A program made the translations under genes and the position numbers. A stretch of DNA of 64,000 nt from Streptomyces sp. NBC_01276 (GTDB lineage Bacteria; Actinomycetota; Actinomycetes; Streptomycetales; Streptomycetaceae): contig NZ_CP108442.1 of NCBI RefSeq assembly GCF_041435355.1, positions 1,302,001 through 1,366,000 on the forward strand. The letters run 5' to 3'. Position 1 is the first letter of the stretch. Each line of letters starts with the position of its first letter. Below, one piece after another: positions 16,969-22,425 of the stretch. Under the pieces are notes generated by a model. The model was not told where the DNA came from and did not search any database. It saw nothing but the letters and a program-made list of their open reading frames with translations.

Positions 16969-17625
16969 ATGCCCCACAGCCAAACCTCTGCACCTCGCGT
17001 CGGCCTCCTCGGTGGACGTCTCGCACGCGGAGCATCGCCGTGGCTTCTGCCGACCGTCGCCACCGCGGCCCTCAGCCTCACCCGGGCGCGCAAGTCCGGA
17101 CGCTGGGCCGCGGCGGCCGTGCCCGCCACCGCGCTCGCGGCGGGCATGCTGTGGTTCTTCCGCGACCCCGAGCGTGAGATCACCGAGGGCCGCGTCATCT
17201 CGCCCGCCGACGGTGTGGTGCAGAGCATCATGCCGTGGAAGGACGGGCGCACTCGCGTCGCGATCTTCATGAGCCCGCTGAACGTCCACGTCAACCGCGC
17301 GCCCCTCGCGGGCACGGTGACGTCCGTGGAGCACATCCCCGGCGGGTTCGTCCCGGCGTTCAACAAGGAGAGCGAAAACAACGAGCGCGTCGTCTGGCAC
17401 TTCGACACCGAGCTCGGCGACATCGAGATGGTGCAGATCGCCGGCGCCGTCGCGCGTCGCATCGTCCCGTACCTGCCGGCCGGCACCAAGGTGGAGCAGG
17501 GCGAACGCATCGGTCTGATCCGCTTCGGCTCGCGCGTCGACATCTACCTCCCCGAGGGTGTCGAGGTCGCGGTCGAGGTCGGTCAGGCCACCACCGCGGG
17601 GGTGACCCGAATTGACCGTGACTGA
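16969..17625 (+). CDS. psd: Phosphatidylserine decarboxylase
   Basis: The 218-residue proenzyme converts phosphatidylserine to phosphatidylethanolamine at the membrane. It is of the short Psd type: a hydrophobic region with ALAAGMLWFFRDPERE, VISPADGVVQSI, the conserved FMSPLNVHVNRAPLAG, and a C-terminal LIRFGSRVDIYLP, where the self-cleaving GS pair creates the pyruvoyl group from the Ser. ATG 16969 with GAAGG upstream gives the usual length; an in-frame start at 16933 is less likely. It overlaps the pssA gene, forming a compact phosphatidylethanolamine synthesis operon. Confidence 0.95.
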   Translation: MPHSQTSAPRVGLLGGRLARGASPWLLPTVATAALSLTRARKSGRWAAAAVPATALAAGMLWFFRDPEREITEGRVISPADGVVQSIMPWKDGRTRVAIFMSPLNVHVNRAPLAGTVTSVEHIPGGFVPAFNKESENNERVVWHFDTELGDIEMVQIAGAVARRIVPYLPAGTKVEQGERIGLIRFGSRVDIYLPEGVEVAVEVGQATTAGVTRIDRD

Positions 17626-18472
17626 CCCTGAGACCCCTGCCACCGGCTGGGTTCCCGAGCGCGCCGAGGAGGAGTCCGCCGAAGACGACATGCCGCTCTC
17701 GCTGCGGCTGTCGATAGCGGACACCCTCACCCTCGGTAACGCGACCTGCGGATTCATGGCGGTGTACTTCACCACCACCGGAATCCTCATCCCGCACCTC
17801 ACCGGCAGCGGCGAGTCGGGCATGGCCCGGCACAGCGCGGCGACCGCGGTGATACTGATGCTCCTCGCGGCGGTCTTCGACCTCTTCGACGGCATCGTCG
17901 CCCGGAAGCTGCGCAGCTCGCCGATGGGCGCGGAGCTCGACAACCTGTCCGACCTGATCAGCTTCGGTCTGGCGCCGGCGTACTTCGTGCTCGTCTACGG
18001 CATGGTCGCCGACGACGCGCACCAGAAGATGTCGGCACTGGCGGCGATCGTGGTGCTGCTGGCGGTGGTCCTGCGGCTGGCGAGATTCAGCTGCGTGACC
18101 ATGAAGGACGGCATGTTCCAGGGCATGCCCAGCCCCTTCGGCGCCCTGACGGTCGTCTCGATCGTGCTGCTGGAGCTGCCGTTCGTGCCGACGCTGCTGG
18201 CGATCATCGGGGTGGCCTGGCTGATGGTGAGCCGGGTCGAGTACCCCAAGCCGCGGGGTGTCCTCGCGGCGGCGATGCTCAGCTGGATCGTCGGTGCCAT
18301 GGGGCTGCTGGCCGCCTGGGCGTTCGACGCCCCGGGTGGGCAGCTCCTGCTCCAGACGGGCTGCGCGCTGCAGATCGCTCTGGCGGCGACCATTCCGCTG
18401 TTCGCGACGACCCGTCGCGCGAACACGTTCCGCCACAACCGGCGGGAGGCGCGGGCGGCGCAGCTGCCGTAA
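17612..18472 (+). CDS. pssA: CDP-diacylglycerol-serine O-phosphatidyltransferase
   Basis: The 286-residue membrane enzyme joins CDP-diacylglycerol and serine to make phosphatidylserine, the substrate of Psd encoded just upstream. The CDP-alcohol phosphotransferase motif D-x2-D-G-x2-A-R-x8-G-x3-D-x3-D is complete in DLFDGIVARK followed by GAELDNLSD. Several hydrophobic segments follow, including AIVVLLAVVLRLARF and VVSIVLLELPFVPTLLAIIG. The TTG at 17612 sits seven bases after a GGTGA ribosome site and overlaps psd by 14 bp; GTG 17618 is an alternative start. A strong hairpin follows its stop. Confidence 0.95.
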   Translation: MTVTDPETPATGWVPERAEEESAEDDMPLSLRLSIADTLTLGNATCGFMAVYFTTTGILIPHLTGSGESGMARHSAATAVILMLLAAVFDLFDGIVARKLRSSPMGAELDNLSDLISFGLAPAYFVLVYGMVADDAHQKMSALAAIVVLLAVVLRLARFSCVTMKDGMFQGMPSPFGALTVVSIVLLELPFVPTLLAIIGVAWLMVSRVEYPKPRGVLAAAMLSWIVGAMGLLAAWAFDAPGGQLLLQTGCALQIALAATIPLFATTRRANTFRHNRREARAAQLP

Positions 18473-18495: not shown

Positions 18496-18529
18496 GAGAC
18501 CCCGGACGCCCTGAGGCGCCCGGGGTCTC
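18496..18529 (+). terminator. Terminator after pssA
   Basis: GAGACCCCGG (18496-18505) pairs with CCGGGGTCTC (18520-18529), with an inner CGCC/GGCG extension around CTGA. TCGTATAT follows. It insulates the lipid operon from the caspase-kinase gene. Confidence 0.8.
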
Positions 18530-18570
18530 CTCGTATATGCGTCCCCACGGATTGCCCCGCTCCACAGGGT

Positions 18571-18599
18571 GTGACGATCGGTCTCGCAGTGTCTAGCAT
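18571..18599 (+). promoter_or_regulatory. Candidate promoter of the caspase-kinase gene
   Basis: GTGACG (18571-18576) and TAGCAT (18594-18599) are spaced by exactly 17 bp, fitting a housekeeping-sigma promoter with a moderately conserved -35 and -10. It predicts a leader of roughly 40 nt before the GTG at 18647, whose ribosome site GAGGA lies at 18636-18640. Confidence 0.55.
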
Positions 18600-18646
18600 G
18601 TCGCTGCACAGCGTGAACACAGACCCGTCCAGGTTGAGGAATCAAT

Positions 18647-20866
18647 GTGAACAAGGCCGTGATCGTGGGGATCGACCGCTACCTGGAGGCCCCGTTAGCA
18701 GGGTGCGTCAACGATGCGAGGGACATGGCGACCTGCCTCTCCTTCCCTGAGTTCGACTTCGACTGCAAGCTGCTGGTCGATTCGCAGGCCACCCGCAGCA
18801 ACATCGTCCGCTCCTTATCGGAACTCGCCTATGGCGAGGAGGAGGGCGATACCCTGCTCTTCTACTTCGCCGGACATGGTGCGGTACTCGGACAGGCAGG
18901 GCACCTCGTCACCTACGACGGGGAGGCCTACGACCTCGGCATCCCGCTGAGCCAGCTAGGTCAGCTGATGGAGTCAGCGAGCCACCGCTTCAAGCACGTG
19001 ATCACCGTGCTCGACTGCTGTCATTCAGGGTCGGCCTTCACCTGGACGAGCAGTCGACCCCTCCAGGCTGGGGACATTGAGCGTGAGGTACCCGCCGTCA
19101 ATGAGAGCCGGTGCATCCTGGCCGCTTGCCGCCCTGAACAGAAGGCGTTGGAGTTCTCCGGACGGGGCGTCTTCACCAGCGCCCTGACGGAGGCCGTGAT
19201 GGGGTCTGCCGTGAACTGGAGCGGCGAGGTCACACTTCTGGGAGTGTACGAGTATGTGGCCGCCGTGGTATCCGAGGCCATCCAGACCCCCGTCTTCAAG
19301 GGCGACATCGCCGGCACGGTCGTCCTCGGAAGGGGCTTTCCGCCCCGGGAGGGCCCTCCCATCGGCAAGGACGAGCTCGCGCACAACCTCGCCAAGGCCC
19401 ACTCCCTGGTGGACGAATACCACTACCTCCAGTTGAGCCAGCTGTCTGAACGTAACGTACGACTCAAATACGGCGCCAAGCACTGTTCAGCCCAGCTGGT
19501 TCCTCTGGTCAAGTGGTTCGACGACACCGAGAAGGCCCTGCCGGACGTCAAGCGGAATCCCGACTGGCAGTCGCTCATGTCCCGAGTCCGGGAGTTCCGC
19601 AAGAATCTCGGAGATCTCAGCGTCGGCGAAGAGACCCGGTTCGGTCGTGTCGTTCGCCCCCTGGGCCACGGCGGCTACGGTCATGTGTGGCTACTGGAGG
19701 ACCCGGATGGCAGGTCATACGCCATGAAGGTCTTCCACGGAAACGAACTGGATGACGAGGTGAAGGTACGCCGCTTCGCCAATGGCTACCACAACATGCG
19801 GAAGCTCGCCCATCCACACATCGTGAGGGTGCACGAGATGATCTCGGCGCCCTACGGCTTCCTCATGGACGCCATCCCAGGCGACAACCTCCGCAAGGCG
19901 TACATCAACCGCGAGGAACCTGAAGCGGTCCTTCAGCTGATGATCGACGTCTGCGAGACAGTCCGTCACGCCCACTCACAGCAAGTGCGGCACCGCGACA
20001 TCAAGCCGGAAAACATCATCGCCACGTACGACGGCGAGACAGGCCGACTCCAGCCCTACCTGACCGACTTCGACCTCGCGTACCACGAAACCAATCGCAC
20101 CGTCACCACCAACATCGGGGTGGGGGGAGTGATCAACTACGCAGCACCGGAACAGCTGTTCGAGCCCAATGCCAAAACCGCCCGCAGTGAAACCGTGGAC
20201 GTCTTCAGTCTGGCCCAGCTGATGTTCTTCGTGATCACCGGCCGGGACCCCAGCGGCGAGAACTTCGCAAAAAACGTCGAGATCCTCACCCGCGAGCTCG
20301 GCCAATGGATCGACGACCGGGCCGCTGACGCCCTGATCGGACTCTACCGAGAGGCGACTGACAAAAACCCCAGCCAGCGCCCGGAGAACGTCGGACTTTT
20401 CGTCAGCGTCCTACGTGAGGCGGAGTCCATCATCCAGATGGCCAGCGGTACGGACTCCGTGCCGGAGCAGGACCTCTGCCGACGGATCGGACACCTATAC
20501 GCCGGCATGAACGAGTATGCCGCCAGCGAGGGTGAGTGCCGGATGAACAGCCGGTCCCGCCAGGTGGAGATCGTCGTTCGGATCAAGAACTTCACAAGCT
20601 TGGGGCGGGCGTCTCTTGAGATCGAGCTTTCGGTTACCTCCGGGATCCCCGTTCCCTCACTCACCTCCGGCAAGTCCGCCCGCCAGTCGATAAACCTGCG
20701 CCTCGACCGCATCGTGGGGAAGCTGCCGGGGGTACGGCGCAGCGCAGGGAACAAGGGCGCCTACCAGTGCTTCCTGGGAGTGGAGGACGTCACCCTCGAC
20801 GTGGCCGGGGTCAACCGCGTGGTGGAGGTGATCTCGCAGACAGTGGCTGGCATCGAGCAGTGGTGA
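18647..20866 (+). CDS. Caspase-like peptidase fused to Ser/Thr protein kinase
   Basis: This 739-residue protein joins two signalling domains. Residues 1-235 form a caspase-fold (C14) peptidase: AVIVGIDRY start, His77 in FYFAGHGA and Cys125 in LDCCHSGSA. Residues 236-325 are a helical linker. Residues 330-595 are a kinase with Gly-loop GHGGYGHVW (340-348), Lys361, HRDIKPEN (449-456), DFD instead of DFG (474-476), APE (500-502), Asp518 and Arg578. Residues 600-739 match nothing I recognise. There is no signal peptide or membrane helix. Codons 17 and 57 are TTA, so translation should need the bldA leucyl-tRNA. GC is visibly lower than in the neighbours. It stands alone between two terminated operons. 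Such architectures occur in bacterial conflict and cell-suicide systems, so a phosphorylation-gated protease is a reasonable inference. Substrate is unknown. Confidence 0.9.
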   Translation: MNKAVIVGIDRYLEAPLAGCVNDARDMATCLSFPEFDFDCKLLVDSQATRSNIVRSLSELAYGEEEGDTLLFYFAGHGAVLGQAGHLVTYDGEAYDLGIPLSQLGQLMESASHRFKHVITVLDCCHSGSAFTWTSSRPLQAGDIEREVPAVNESRCILAACRPEQKALEFSGRGVFTSALTEAVMGSAVNWSGEVTLLGVYEYVAAVVSEAIQTPVFKGDIAGTVVLGRGFPPREGPPIGKDELAHNLAKAHSLVDEYHYLQLSQLSERNVRLKYGAKHCSAQLVPLVKWFDDTEKALPDVKRNPDWQSLMSRVREFRKNLGDLSVGEETRFGRVVRPLGHGGYGHVWLLEDPDGRSYAMKVFHGNELDDEVKVRRFANGYHNMRKLAHPHIVRVHEMISAPYGFLMDAIPGDNLRKAYINREEPEAVLQLMIDVCETVRHAHSQQVRHRDIKPENIIATYDGETGRLQPYLTDFDLAYHETNRTVTTNIGVGGVINYAAPEQLFEPNAKTARSETVDVFSLAQLMFFVITGRDPSGENFAKNVEILTRELGQWIDDRAADALIGLYREATDKNPSQRPENVGLFVSVLREAESIIQMASGTDSVPEQDLCRRIGHLYAGMNEYAASEGECRMNSRSRQVEIVVRIKNFTSLGRASLEIELSVTSGIPVPSLTSGKSARQSINLRLDRIVGKLPGVRRSAGNKGAYQCFLGVEDVTLDVAGVNRVVEVISQTVAGIEQW

Positions 20867-20949
20867 GGATGAGCTGACAGCACGGCCCACGTAACCTTGA
20901 TGTCGGAAAACTGCCAGCCCGGGTCCGGTCCGGACGGGAAGCTGGGGGC

Positions 20950-22425
20950 ATGTACACCGACACCGACCGCTGCGTCAGGGCCGTGCAGTCGAAGGACGCC
21001 CGTTTCGACGGGTGGTTCTTCACCGCCGTCCGGACCACCGGGATCTACTGCCGGCCCAGCTGTCCCGCCGTGCCCCCCAAGGTCGAGAACATGAGCTTCC
21101 TGCCCAGCGCCGCCGCCTGCCAGCAGGCCGGGTACCGGGCCTGCAAGCGGTGCCGGCCGGACACGAGCCCCGGCTCTCCCGAGTGGAACGCCCGCGCCGA
21201 CGCCGTGGCCCGGGCCATGCGGCTGATCCAGGACGGGGTGGTCGACCGGGAGGGGGTCACCGGGCTGGCGGCCCGGCTCGGGTACTCCACCCGCCAGGTC
21301 GAGCGGCAGCTCGGCGCCGAGCTGGGGGCCGGGCCCCTCTCGCTCGCCCGCGCGCAGCGCGCGCAGACCGCCCGGCTGCTGATCGAGACCTCCGAGCTGC
21401 CGATGGGCGACGTCGCGTTCGCCGCCGGGTTCGCCTCCATCCGCAACTTCAACGAGACGGTGCGCGAGGTCTTCGCGCTCACCCCCGGCGAGCTGCGGGC
21501 GAGGGCCGCCAAGGCCGGCCGCAGTGAGCCCCGGGTGCCCGGGACGATCAGTCTTCGGCTGCCCTACCGGGCCCCGCTGAACCCCGACAACCTCTTCGGG
21601 CACCTGGCCGCCACCGCCGTCCCCGGGGTGGAGGAGTGGCGGGACGGGGCCTACCGGCGGACGCTGCGGCTCCCGTACGGCACCGGGGTGGTCGCGCTCA
21701 CGCCGGGTCCCGAGCACATCGGCTGCCGGCTGGCCCTGACCGACCTGCGGGACCTGACCATCGCCATCAGCCGCTGCCGCTGGATGCTGGACCTGGACGC
21801 CGACCCGGAGGCCGTGGACGACCAGCTCCGCACCGATCCGCTGCTGGCCCCGCTGGTGGACAAGGCGCCCGGGCGGCGGGTTCCGCGCACCGTGGACGCG
21901 GCGGAGTTCGCCGTACGGGCGGTGCTGGGCCAGCAGGTGTCCACGGCCGCCGCGCGCACGCACGCGGCCCGCCTGGTGACCGCGTACGGGGAGCCGGTGG
22001 AGGATCCGCAGGGCGGGCTGACCCACCTCTTCCCGGCCCCGGAGGCGCTGGCCGGCCTCGACCCGGAGACCCTGTCGATGCCGCGCAGCCGCCGCACCAC
22101 GCTCACCACCCTGGTCGGGGCGCTGGCGGACGGTTCGCTGCCGCTGGGCATCGACAGCGACTGGGAGGCGGCCCGCGCCGCCCTGAACGCCCTGCCCGGT
22201 TTCGGGCCGTGGACCACCGAGATCATCGCGATGCGGGCGCTGGGCGACCCGGACGCGTTCCTGCCGTCCGACCTGGGGGTCCGGCGGGCCGCCCGGGGGC
22301 TGGGGCTGCCGTCCACCCCGGCCGCCCTGACCGACCGGGCGGCCGGGTGGCGGCCCTGGCGGGCGTACGCCGTGCAGTACCTGTGGGCCACCGAGGACCA
22401 CGCCATCAACCACCTCCCCGTTTGA
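20950..22425 (+). CDS. alkA: Ada/AlkA fusion: alkylation-responsive regulator and 3-methyladenine glycosylase
   Basis: The 491-residue protein has three parts. Residues 1-75 are an Ada zinc domain with C34, C38, C65 and C68 (GIYCRPSCPA, ACKRCRP), in which C34 would accept methyl groups from phosphotriesters. Residues 85-185 are an AraC-type DNA-binding region. Residues 195-491 are an AlkA glycosylase with the helix-hairpin-helix LPGFGPWTTEIIAMRALG and catalytic Asp441 in FLPSDLG. It should sense DNA methylation, activate repair genes and excise 3-methyladenine. Ogt follows after 12 bp. The arrangement is well known in actinobacteria. Confidence 0.95.
   Translation: MYTDTDRCVRAVQSKDARFDGWFFTAVRTTGIYCRPSCPAVPPKVENMSFLPSAAACQQAGYRACKRCRPDTSPGSPEWNARADAVARAMRLIQDGVVDREGVTGLAARLGYSTRQVERQLGAELGAGPLSLARAQRAQTARLLIETSELPMGDVAFAAGFASIRNFNETVREVFALTPGELRARAAKAGRSEPRVPGTISLRLPYRAPLNPDNLFGHLAATAVPGVEEWRDGAYRRTLRLPYGTGVVALTPGPEHIGCRLALTDLRDLTIAISRCRWMLDLDADPEAVDDQLRTDPLLAPLVDKAPGRRVPRTVDAAEFAVRAVLGQQVSTAAARTHAARLVTAYGEPVEDPQGGLTHLFPAPEALAGLDPETLSMPRSRRTTLTTLVGALADGSLPLGIDSDWEAARAALNALPGFGPWTTEIIAMRALGDPDAFLPSDLGVRRAARGLGLPSTPAALTDRAAGWRPWRAYAVQYLWATEDHAINHLPV

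Follow-up and report, generated by a model that had tools for sequence, protein, structure and literature searches.

What a protein that joins a caspase to a protein kinase does for its host is the question raised by a gene of Streptomyces sp. NBC_01276, found on a 64,000-nucleotide stretch of contig NZ_CP108442.1 (positions 1,302,001 to 1,366,000 of the forward strand), referred to as the window. In animal cell death, kinases and caspases cooperate but are normally separate proteins. The first-pass annotation of this DNA had described both active sites in one chain and proposed a stand-alone defense or cell-suicide switch. With slightly better than even confidence, we consider the product of this caspase-kinase-tail gene (CK) a horizontally traded single-gene immune effector, in which the caspase would be the executor and the kinase plus the C-terminal tail the switch; the trigger, the order of the steps, and the cleavage specificity are what we infer. 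In this reading, CK would probably suffice by itself as a cell-suicide switch gated by its kinase. The bare fusion of caspase and kinase is not new, having been mentioned for EACC2 proteins (Kaur et al. 2021, PMC8195603). Searches of open-licence PubMed Central text did not find the layout with its constancy, the kinase changes, the tail of chaperone type, or the kinship with Thoeris described below. The parts of the gene are the following:

18647..20866, + strand: CK, 739 aa with a GTG start; the open reading frame (ORF) is open and exact by translation
18635-18641: putative ribosome site of CK, TGAGGAA-like, read by eye
18647..19342, + strand: caspase domain, residues 1-232 (PF00656, TIR-caspase homology, resemblance to metacaspases and paracaspases)
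18875-18877 and 19019-19021: codons for His77 and Cys125
19343..19645, + strand: helical linker, residues 233-333 (AlphaFold2 helices 241-266, 269-297, 299-303, and 305-322)
19646..20434, + strand: atypical protein kinase domain, residues 334-596
19727-19729, 19784-19786, and 19997-19999: kinase codons for K361, G380, and D451
20066-20074 and 20105-20107: kinase codons for DFD (474-476) and T487 of the activation loop
20435..20863, + strand: C-terminal tail region, after the kinase domain

Pfam placed Peptidase_C14 at residues 2-215 (E 5e-19) and Pkinase at residues 336-579 (E 3e-28), with HRD at residues 449-451 and APE at 500-502. Among 5.8 billion proteins, 573 relatives were found at E ≤0.001, the best 120 of which, including the window's own protein, were listed. 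The window protein was aligned with 104 of the 119 listed relatives (715-775 aa; 15 were dropped for length), and it is to these 105 sequences that conservation refers in the following. The 104 relatives were 33-82% identical, both Pfam domains were listed for each of them, and all hosts named among the listed matches were Actinomycetota, many rows being metagenomic and without a name. Residues H77, D123, C125, K361, H449, R450, D451, K453, N456, D474, P501, and E502 were invariant, as were G340, G342, and G345 of the Gly loop, and A500 was kept in at least 90% of the sequences. The presence of both active sites in one chain was thereby confirmed at a level well above chance, with His77/Cys125 and the kinase residues where they had been placed, and a degenerate caspase site, which would have spoken against the original proposal, was not seen in any of the 105 sequences. 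The linker had a mean pairwise identity of 33%. The pairwise identities of the four parts of the protein correlated with each other at 0.85-0.92; thus, the four parts diverge together, which is the pattern expected of one traded unit. The layout of ∼740 aa is constant across the whole alignment.

For versions without the caspase, a search with kinase plus tail was made; most of its matches were CK copies truncated 5′ (14 sequences inspected), and no tail fused to other proteins was seen, the 12 matches among 344 candidates all belonging to the CK family. Of the 14, only P0127 (487 aa) and P0129 (412 aa), with kinase plus tail and no caspase in the ORF, might be genuine caspase-less versions; they may represent switch modules that stand alone or merely gene calls that are too short. 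A scan of genome contigs was dominated by ordinary kinases (80 loci, two of which, L008 and L009, were used further); the LTDFD(L/I)A motif was absent from the remaining 78 by motif scan. In the protein of L009, which is 32% identical to CK and lies outside the 105 sequences, both residues of the caspase dyad, the αC-position Gly, and DFD were recognized by eye.

The kinase core had been called complete; its Lys361, HRD, APE, and Gly loop are indeed present, but DFG is DFD and the αC glutamate is glycine. The position of the latter, 19 residues after the VAIK lysine, is Gly380 in CK and aligns opposite the glutamate of StkP. Glycine at this position and D476 in place of the DFG glycine occurred together in 105/105 sequences. 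As controls, 87 other kinases ranking next in the kinase-plus-tail search were used (86 aligned, one being without a recognized HRD), and both the αC glutamate and the DFG glycine were present in 86/86. The same held for kinases of the same genome (30 best of 49 matches, 29 aligned because one was without a recognized HRD), with glutamate in 28/29 (one gap) and glycine in 29/29. CK thus has the Gly loop, VAIK lysine, HRD aspartate, asparagine, and DFG aspartate of Hanks-type kinases, and is without their αC glutamate and DFG glycine. Judged from the alignment, an acid was lost on one side of the active site of this kinase lineage and gained at the other, and the paired changes mark it as distinct. 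Position 487 in the activation loop was Thr in 104 sequences and Ser in one; by our own count, we take it to be the position of PknB Thr171. At the P+1 residue, which was Thr or Ser in 86/86 ordinary kinases, 80 of the 105 sequences had Val and 11 had Ala, and by sequence this feature of 91 CK proteins would weigh against phosphotransfer activity.

A similar substitution occurs in RNase L, a different protein, the effector of which is a nuclease. According to PMC6442604, an acid replaces the DFG glycine in the RNase L pseudokinase and in WNG kinases, as it does in CK; the RNase L pseudokinase has DFD, both acids of which bind Mg, and its ATP affinity is high, whereas the kinase activity of WNG1 needs the acid at this position. 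The same source describes WNG kinases as being without the Gly loop that CK has, and the WNG-family member BPK1 as retaining the αC glutamate that CK does not have. The kinase fold is also common to CK and the anti-phage kinases PD-T4-6, MAD6, and PglW (PADLOC and NCBIfam models). The best PADLOC match of CK was PD-T4-6 (120 bits; the PADLOC "caspase" model gave 100 bits), which is probably a generic kinase match, and CK scored under the NCBIfam cut-offs for anti-phage kinase models.

The domain extent described at first stopped at residue 595 and missed a conserved C-terminal domain (∼605-739) without a Pfam match. Because a fold search with the whole model barely tested this tail, it was modeled separately, and the separate model had a predicted resemblance to the fold of class I type III secretion chaperones and the YbjN family (sequence identities in the first 21 rows were 5-14%). 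The alpha-beta fold was compared with that of Spa15, InvB, and YbjN, and the similarity is a predicted one. In contrast to these proteins, the tail of CK is fused to a kinase. We regard this C-terminal domain as the likelier sensing part of the protein.

The caspase domain pointed to its own set of relatives. Eight of nine PDB sequence matches were metacaspases, the remaining one being GSU0716, and MALT1 and GSU0716 stood out in a structure search with the CK model. Asp23 (GCVND motif), kept in 104/105 sequences, aligned with a metacaspase aspartate; by this analogy, D23 and D123 are presumably acidic residues of the S1 type. Metacaspases cut after Arg or Lys, and the alignment of D23 suggests that the CK caspase would likewise cut after these basic residues. 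Autocleavage in the loop 138-150 was considered and dropped: Arg or Lys occurs within residues 136-152 in 102/105 sequences, yet a 17-residue stretch often has one.

A plasmid search with the caspase domain gave 121 records, and in 66 the match spanned 80% of the domain or more; 40 rows were shown. Inspected were 18 loci, ie, four records of an earlier plasmid search and 14 of the 40 shown rows, mostly one per organism; the 26 other shown rows were not fetched, and some of them are the same four records or near-copies. The plasmid relatives at these loci were "caspase family proteins" of 315-331 aa, and a TIR gene lay directly upstream of the caspase in 17/18 cases (16 annotated, plus L184, in which an unnamed upstream ORF matched ThsB_TIR). 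In L185, a weak RyR-domain ORF was directly upstream, and two TIR genes were nearby on the opposite strand. Of two relatives from the phage collection, L178 had an upstream TIR gene like that of L181, by eye, and L179 did not. All three TIR proteins tested matched Pfam ThsB_TIR above the cut-off, and PADLOC ThsB was matched by 2/2. Such Thoeris-type TIR-caspase pairs go by the name "type IV Thoeris". Other plasmid rows carried helicase or TIR-protein annotations (H52, H53, and H59), thus the caspase branch is not exclusive to TIR pairs.

The window caspase scored 81-119 bits against the 18 plasmid caspases and at most 31 bits against EACC1-type caspases. With hhalign, the profiles of the CK caspase and of TIR-caspases aligned over 231 columns (33% identity, E 7e-52) up to residue 248, and the C-termini were unrelated (probability 0.6%). 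Because homology ends at the caspase border, the C-terminal part of TIR-caspases appears to have been replaced in CK by kinase and tail. In a tree of 38 caspases, caspase-kinases and TIR-caspases each formed a unit (91/96 and 96/96) and grouped apart from seven EACC1 ones (88/69, with long-branch warnings). By score and profile, TIR-caspases are thus closest to the CK caspase, yet in the tree the two are neighboring, separate groups (88/69). CK has in common with the Thoeris-type pairs a caspase domain that is homologous end to end, both dyad residues, and carriage on mobile DNA; it differs in having no TIR gene and in the linker, kinase, and chaperone-like domain that take the place of the TIR-caspase C-terminal part.

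Several of these caspase loci had further features. The RyR-type ORF mentioned above (L185:1871-2278, on pC6.5d of Rhizobium rhizogenes) occupies the place of the TIR gene before a caspase of the TIR branch, and a small ORF after the caspase in L178 (3613-3891) resembles it, by eye. ORFs of similar size follow the caspase in L181, L182, L184, L191, and L192 and are perhaps a third component. In an Agrobacterium pTi (L180:1-1732), CHAT-domain and winged-helix genes lie on the opposite strand beside the TIR-caspase pair, perhaps as a second conflict locus. In Proteus penneri pPp47 (L175), Tn7-like tnsD/tnsE genes precede the pair, from which two small genes separate them, and the pair may be cargo of a Tn7-like element.

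Within actinobacteria, caspases are also known from two-gene systems with EACC1, in which an N-terminal caspase has a C-terminal partner domain, as in CK (Kaur et al. 2020, PMC7159879). Relative to the systems described there, CK has no adjacent EACC1 membrane protein, and its caspase is more distant from the EACC1 type. The genome of the window had six caspase and 49 kinase matches, and EACC1 directly preceded four of the six caspases (G000, C1:8011834, C1:8191552, C1:4912751, and C2:514413) but not CK. None of eight carriers had EACC1 beside CK, and 3/8 had no EACC1 match at all. EAD1 was found in 1/9 genomes and not in that of the window, and Pfam detected no EAD in CK. Membership of CK in EACC1/EAD systems was therefore rejected. 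No EACC2 domain precedes the CK caspase, the Pfam match of which begins at residue 2 and leaves no room for one. PMC8195603 reports S/T/Y kinases among the C-terminal domains of EACC2 caspases; such proteins have caspase and kinase in one chain, as CK does, but they start with EACC2 ahead of the caspase and their C-termini vary strongly, in contrast to the constant layout of CK. With the NCBIfam model for EACC1-caspases (cut-off 140), CK scored 78 bits and three TIR-caspases 91-114 bits, all of them below the cut-off. CK is thus a member of neither named system, EACC1 or Thoeris, and, as far as can be told, works like a defense caspase.

Whether CK belongs to the host or travels between hosts was addressed by its distribution and its sites. 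The locus in the window and its empty counterpart in the close relative G012 comprise the following:

17618..18472, + strand: CDP-alcohol phosphatidyltransferase gene (pssA-like, PF01066), left flank of the empty site
18496..18529, + strand: hairpin after pssA, G+C-rich, with a 10-bp perfect outer stem and no T run, by folding
18530..20890, no strand: segment unmatched in the empty site of G012 by junction alignment (ends approximate, net gain ∼2.29 kb)
20950..22425, + strand: AlkA/Ada-type DNA repair gene (PF06029, PF02805), right flank of the empty site

In G012, pssA was followed by alkA, with ∼185 bp between and no CK. Other carriers were 0/149 in a draw of genomes from the genus, 6/393 from the family, 1/393 from the class, and 0/395 from the phylum (the draws overlap; E limits were 1e-80, 1e-90, 1e-90, and 1e-70, respectively). 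In G374, a CK with 82% identity occupied the same slot as in the window, and its number of synonymous substitutions per site (dS) was 1.04, compared with 0.11-0.35 for six neighbors. A second slot, beside aspS, gave a similar picture for the copies of G465 and G454, with a CK dS of 0.94 compared with 0.22-0.41 for four neighbors, although at this slot the proteins of metG and of a sensor gene are as divergent as that of CK. All dS values were obtained by NG86, and values near 1 are approximate. In eight of eight relatives matching aspS, no CK was present in the adjacent 1.5 kb that was retrieved. The ratio of nonsynonymous to synonymous substitution (dN/dS) was ∼0.11 overall (caspase 0.12, kinase 0.07, linker 0.16, and C-terminus 0.15); CK is thus under purifying selection, and by dS the alleles predate the genes around them. 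Its G+C content was below that of its locus in 8/8 compared loci and, in the window, below that of six neighbors. The patchy distribution, the allele ages, the empty sites, and the G+C content together are what would be expected of a gene that genomes acquire and trade on account of what it does by itself.

The neighborhood had likewise been described as offering no explanation, and this view was upheld. Neither PADLOC nor Pfam, each applied to ten flanking genes, detected a defense gene near CK, and by Pfam there was no TIR (ThsB) gene among them. Across ten loci (ORFs of at least 40 aa within 3.5 kb), no ORF except metG was shared between different sites, and a fixed housekeeping partner was not seen; for this, neighbors and 915 stop-to-stop ORFs were compared all against all, ORFs being used because the gene caller favors high G+C at third codon positions (GC3). 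No sigma-70-like promoter site for CK was found in a scan. Linkage of insertion to tRNA genes was rejected, the only tRNA in nine loci being ∼2.5 kb from its copy.

The same data bear on what else CK might be. It lies among core genes in the window, and a genome with 49 kinase and six caspase matches could employ CK for its own purposes, as a regulator needed under certain conditions or as a protease of cell death, the caspase processing specific host proteins during development, nutrient, or envelope stress without any part in defense; absence from nearly all sampled relatives, different sites, and allele ages unlike those of the backbone make this unlikely. A module that serves mobile elements (plasmid, integrative element) for stability or as a weapon, which kills cells upon its loss or kills rivals and is carried passively in the chromosome, would fit the two copies found beside transposase genes (L008 and L100) and the FtsK and DUF2637 genes ∼6-8 kb away in L008. 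We consider it improbable, as such a module has to be reconciled with the lack of a recurrent antidote-like partner in the ten loci, with the absence of full-length CK from 72,556 plasmid records (no place covers 80%), and with 22 viral-contig matches, none of which reaches the caspase. Still less credible is that CK is a member of the EACC1/EACC2 caspase conflict systems that lost its partner: the match to the NCBIfam model caspase_w_EACC1, under its cut-off as given above, and the S/T/Y kinases reported behind EACC2 caspases speak for it, but EACC1 precedes most of the host's caspases and not CK, and is missing altogether from some carriers. Moreover, the caspase of CK has its nearer kin among TIR-caspases, and its N-terminus leaves no space for EACC2.

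The other alternative concerns mechanism and is compatible with a role in defense. To it we attach a probability that falls moderately short of even: the CK kinase would be a pseudokinase similar to that of RNase L, an ATP/Mg sensor and dimerization switch without phosphate transfer, and nucleotide-dependent dimerization alone would gate the caspase. The DFD of RNase L with its Mg-binding acids and high ATP affinity, the uniform replacement of the αC glutamate, and the Val or Ala at P+1 all argue for this possibility, whereas the retention of K361, D451, N456, D474, and the activation-loop Thr/Ser in every aligned sequence argues for catalysis, as does the requirement of WNG1 for an acid at the very same position (PMC6442604).

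For the immune effector favored here, the following sequence of events can be proposed. In resting CK, the caspase at the N-terminus, akin to the executors of TIR-caspase pairs, would be held off. The chaperone-like C-terminal domain might bind an extended stretch of a phage protein, dimerize, or both, so that two kinase domains would meet. The kinase domains would change shape upon binding of nucleotide and probably also upon trans-phosphorylation at Thr487, whereupon pairing of the caspases would follow, with opening of their disordered loop at 138-150. The active caspase would then cut host and phage proteins after Arg/Lys, and the infected cell would be stopped or killed. Here, the fold of the tail is predicted, and we infer the defense role, the ligand, the order of events, and the cleavage specificity. 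An even more specific version, which we offer tentatively and with clearly less than even confidence, is that CK constitutes an immune system by itself: a caspase of the Thoeris branch would have swapped the TIR-made chemical signal for a built-in switch, made up of a kinase with a relocated active-site acid (αC glutamate lost, DFD gained, as in RNase L) and a tail of secretion-chaperone type that captures an invader protein directly. The sporadic, mobile distribution and the Thoeris-type kin of the caspase lend weight to the originally proposed defense or cell-suicide switch, and gating by the kinase is still a supposition. CK unites kinase, caspase, and likely sensor in one small mobile gene, the nearest caspases being those of TIR-caspase pairs, and its constant 740-aa layout makes gating of the caspase by a kinase directly accessible to experiments on a single gene and its point mutants. 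If true, CK would be the single-chain counterpart of animal kinase-plus-caspase death complexes.

Two features of the insertion sites were observed in addition. The hairpin at 18496-18529 forms the left border in the window, with the extra segment starting directly behind it; it was not in the terminator scan list, and a similar G+C-rich hairpin-like stretch is present in the G012 junction, by eye. The aspS-metG interval of Streptomyces (L096, L098, L195, L199, and L201) is variable and a possible insertion hotspot: it may be nearly empty, as in L201, in which aspS and metG are roughly 0.1 kb apart, or be occupied by a gene related to one of 237 aa, by one or the other of two types of metG, or by CK. 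In L097, CK is also beside metG, with aspS outside the 20 kb fetched.
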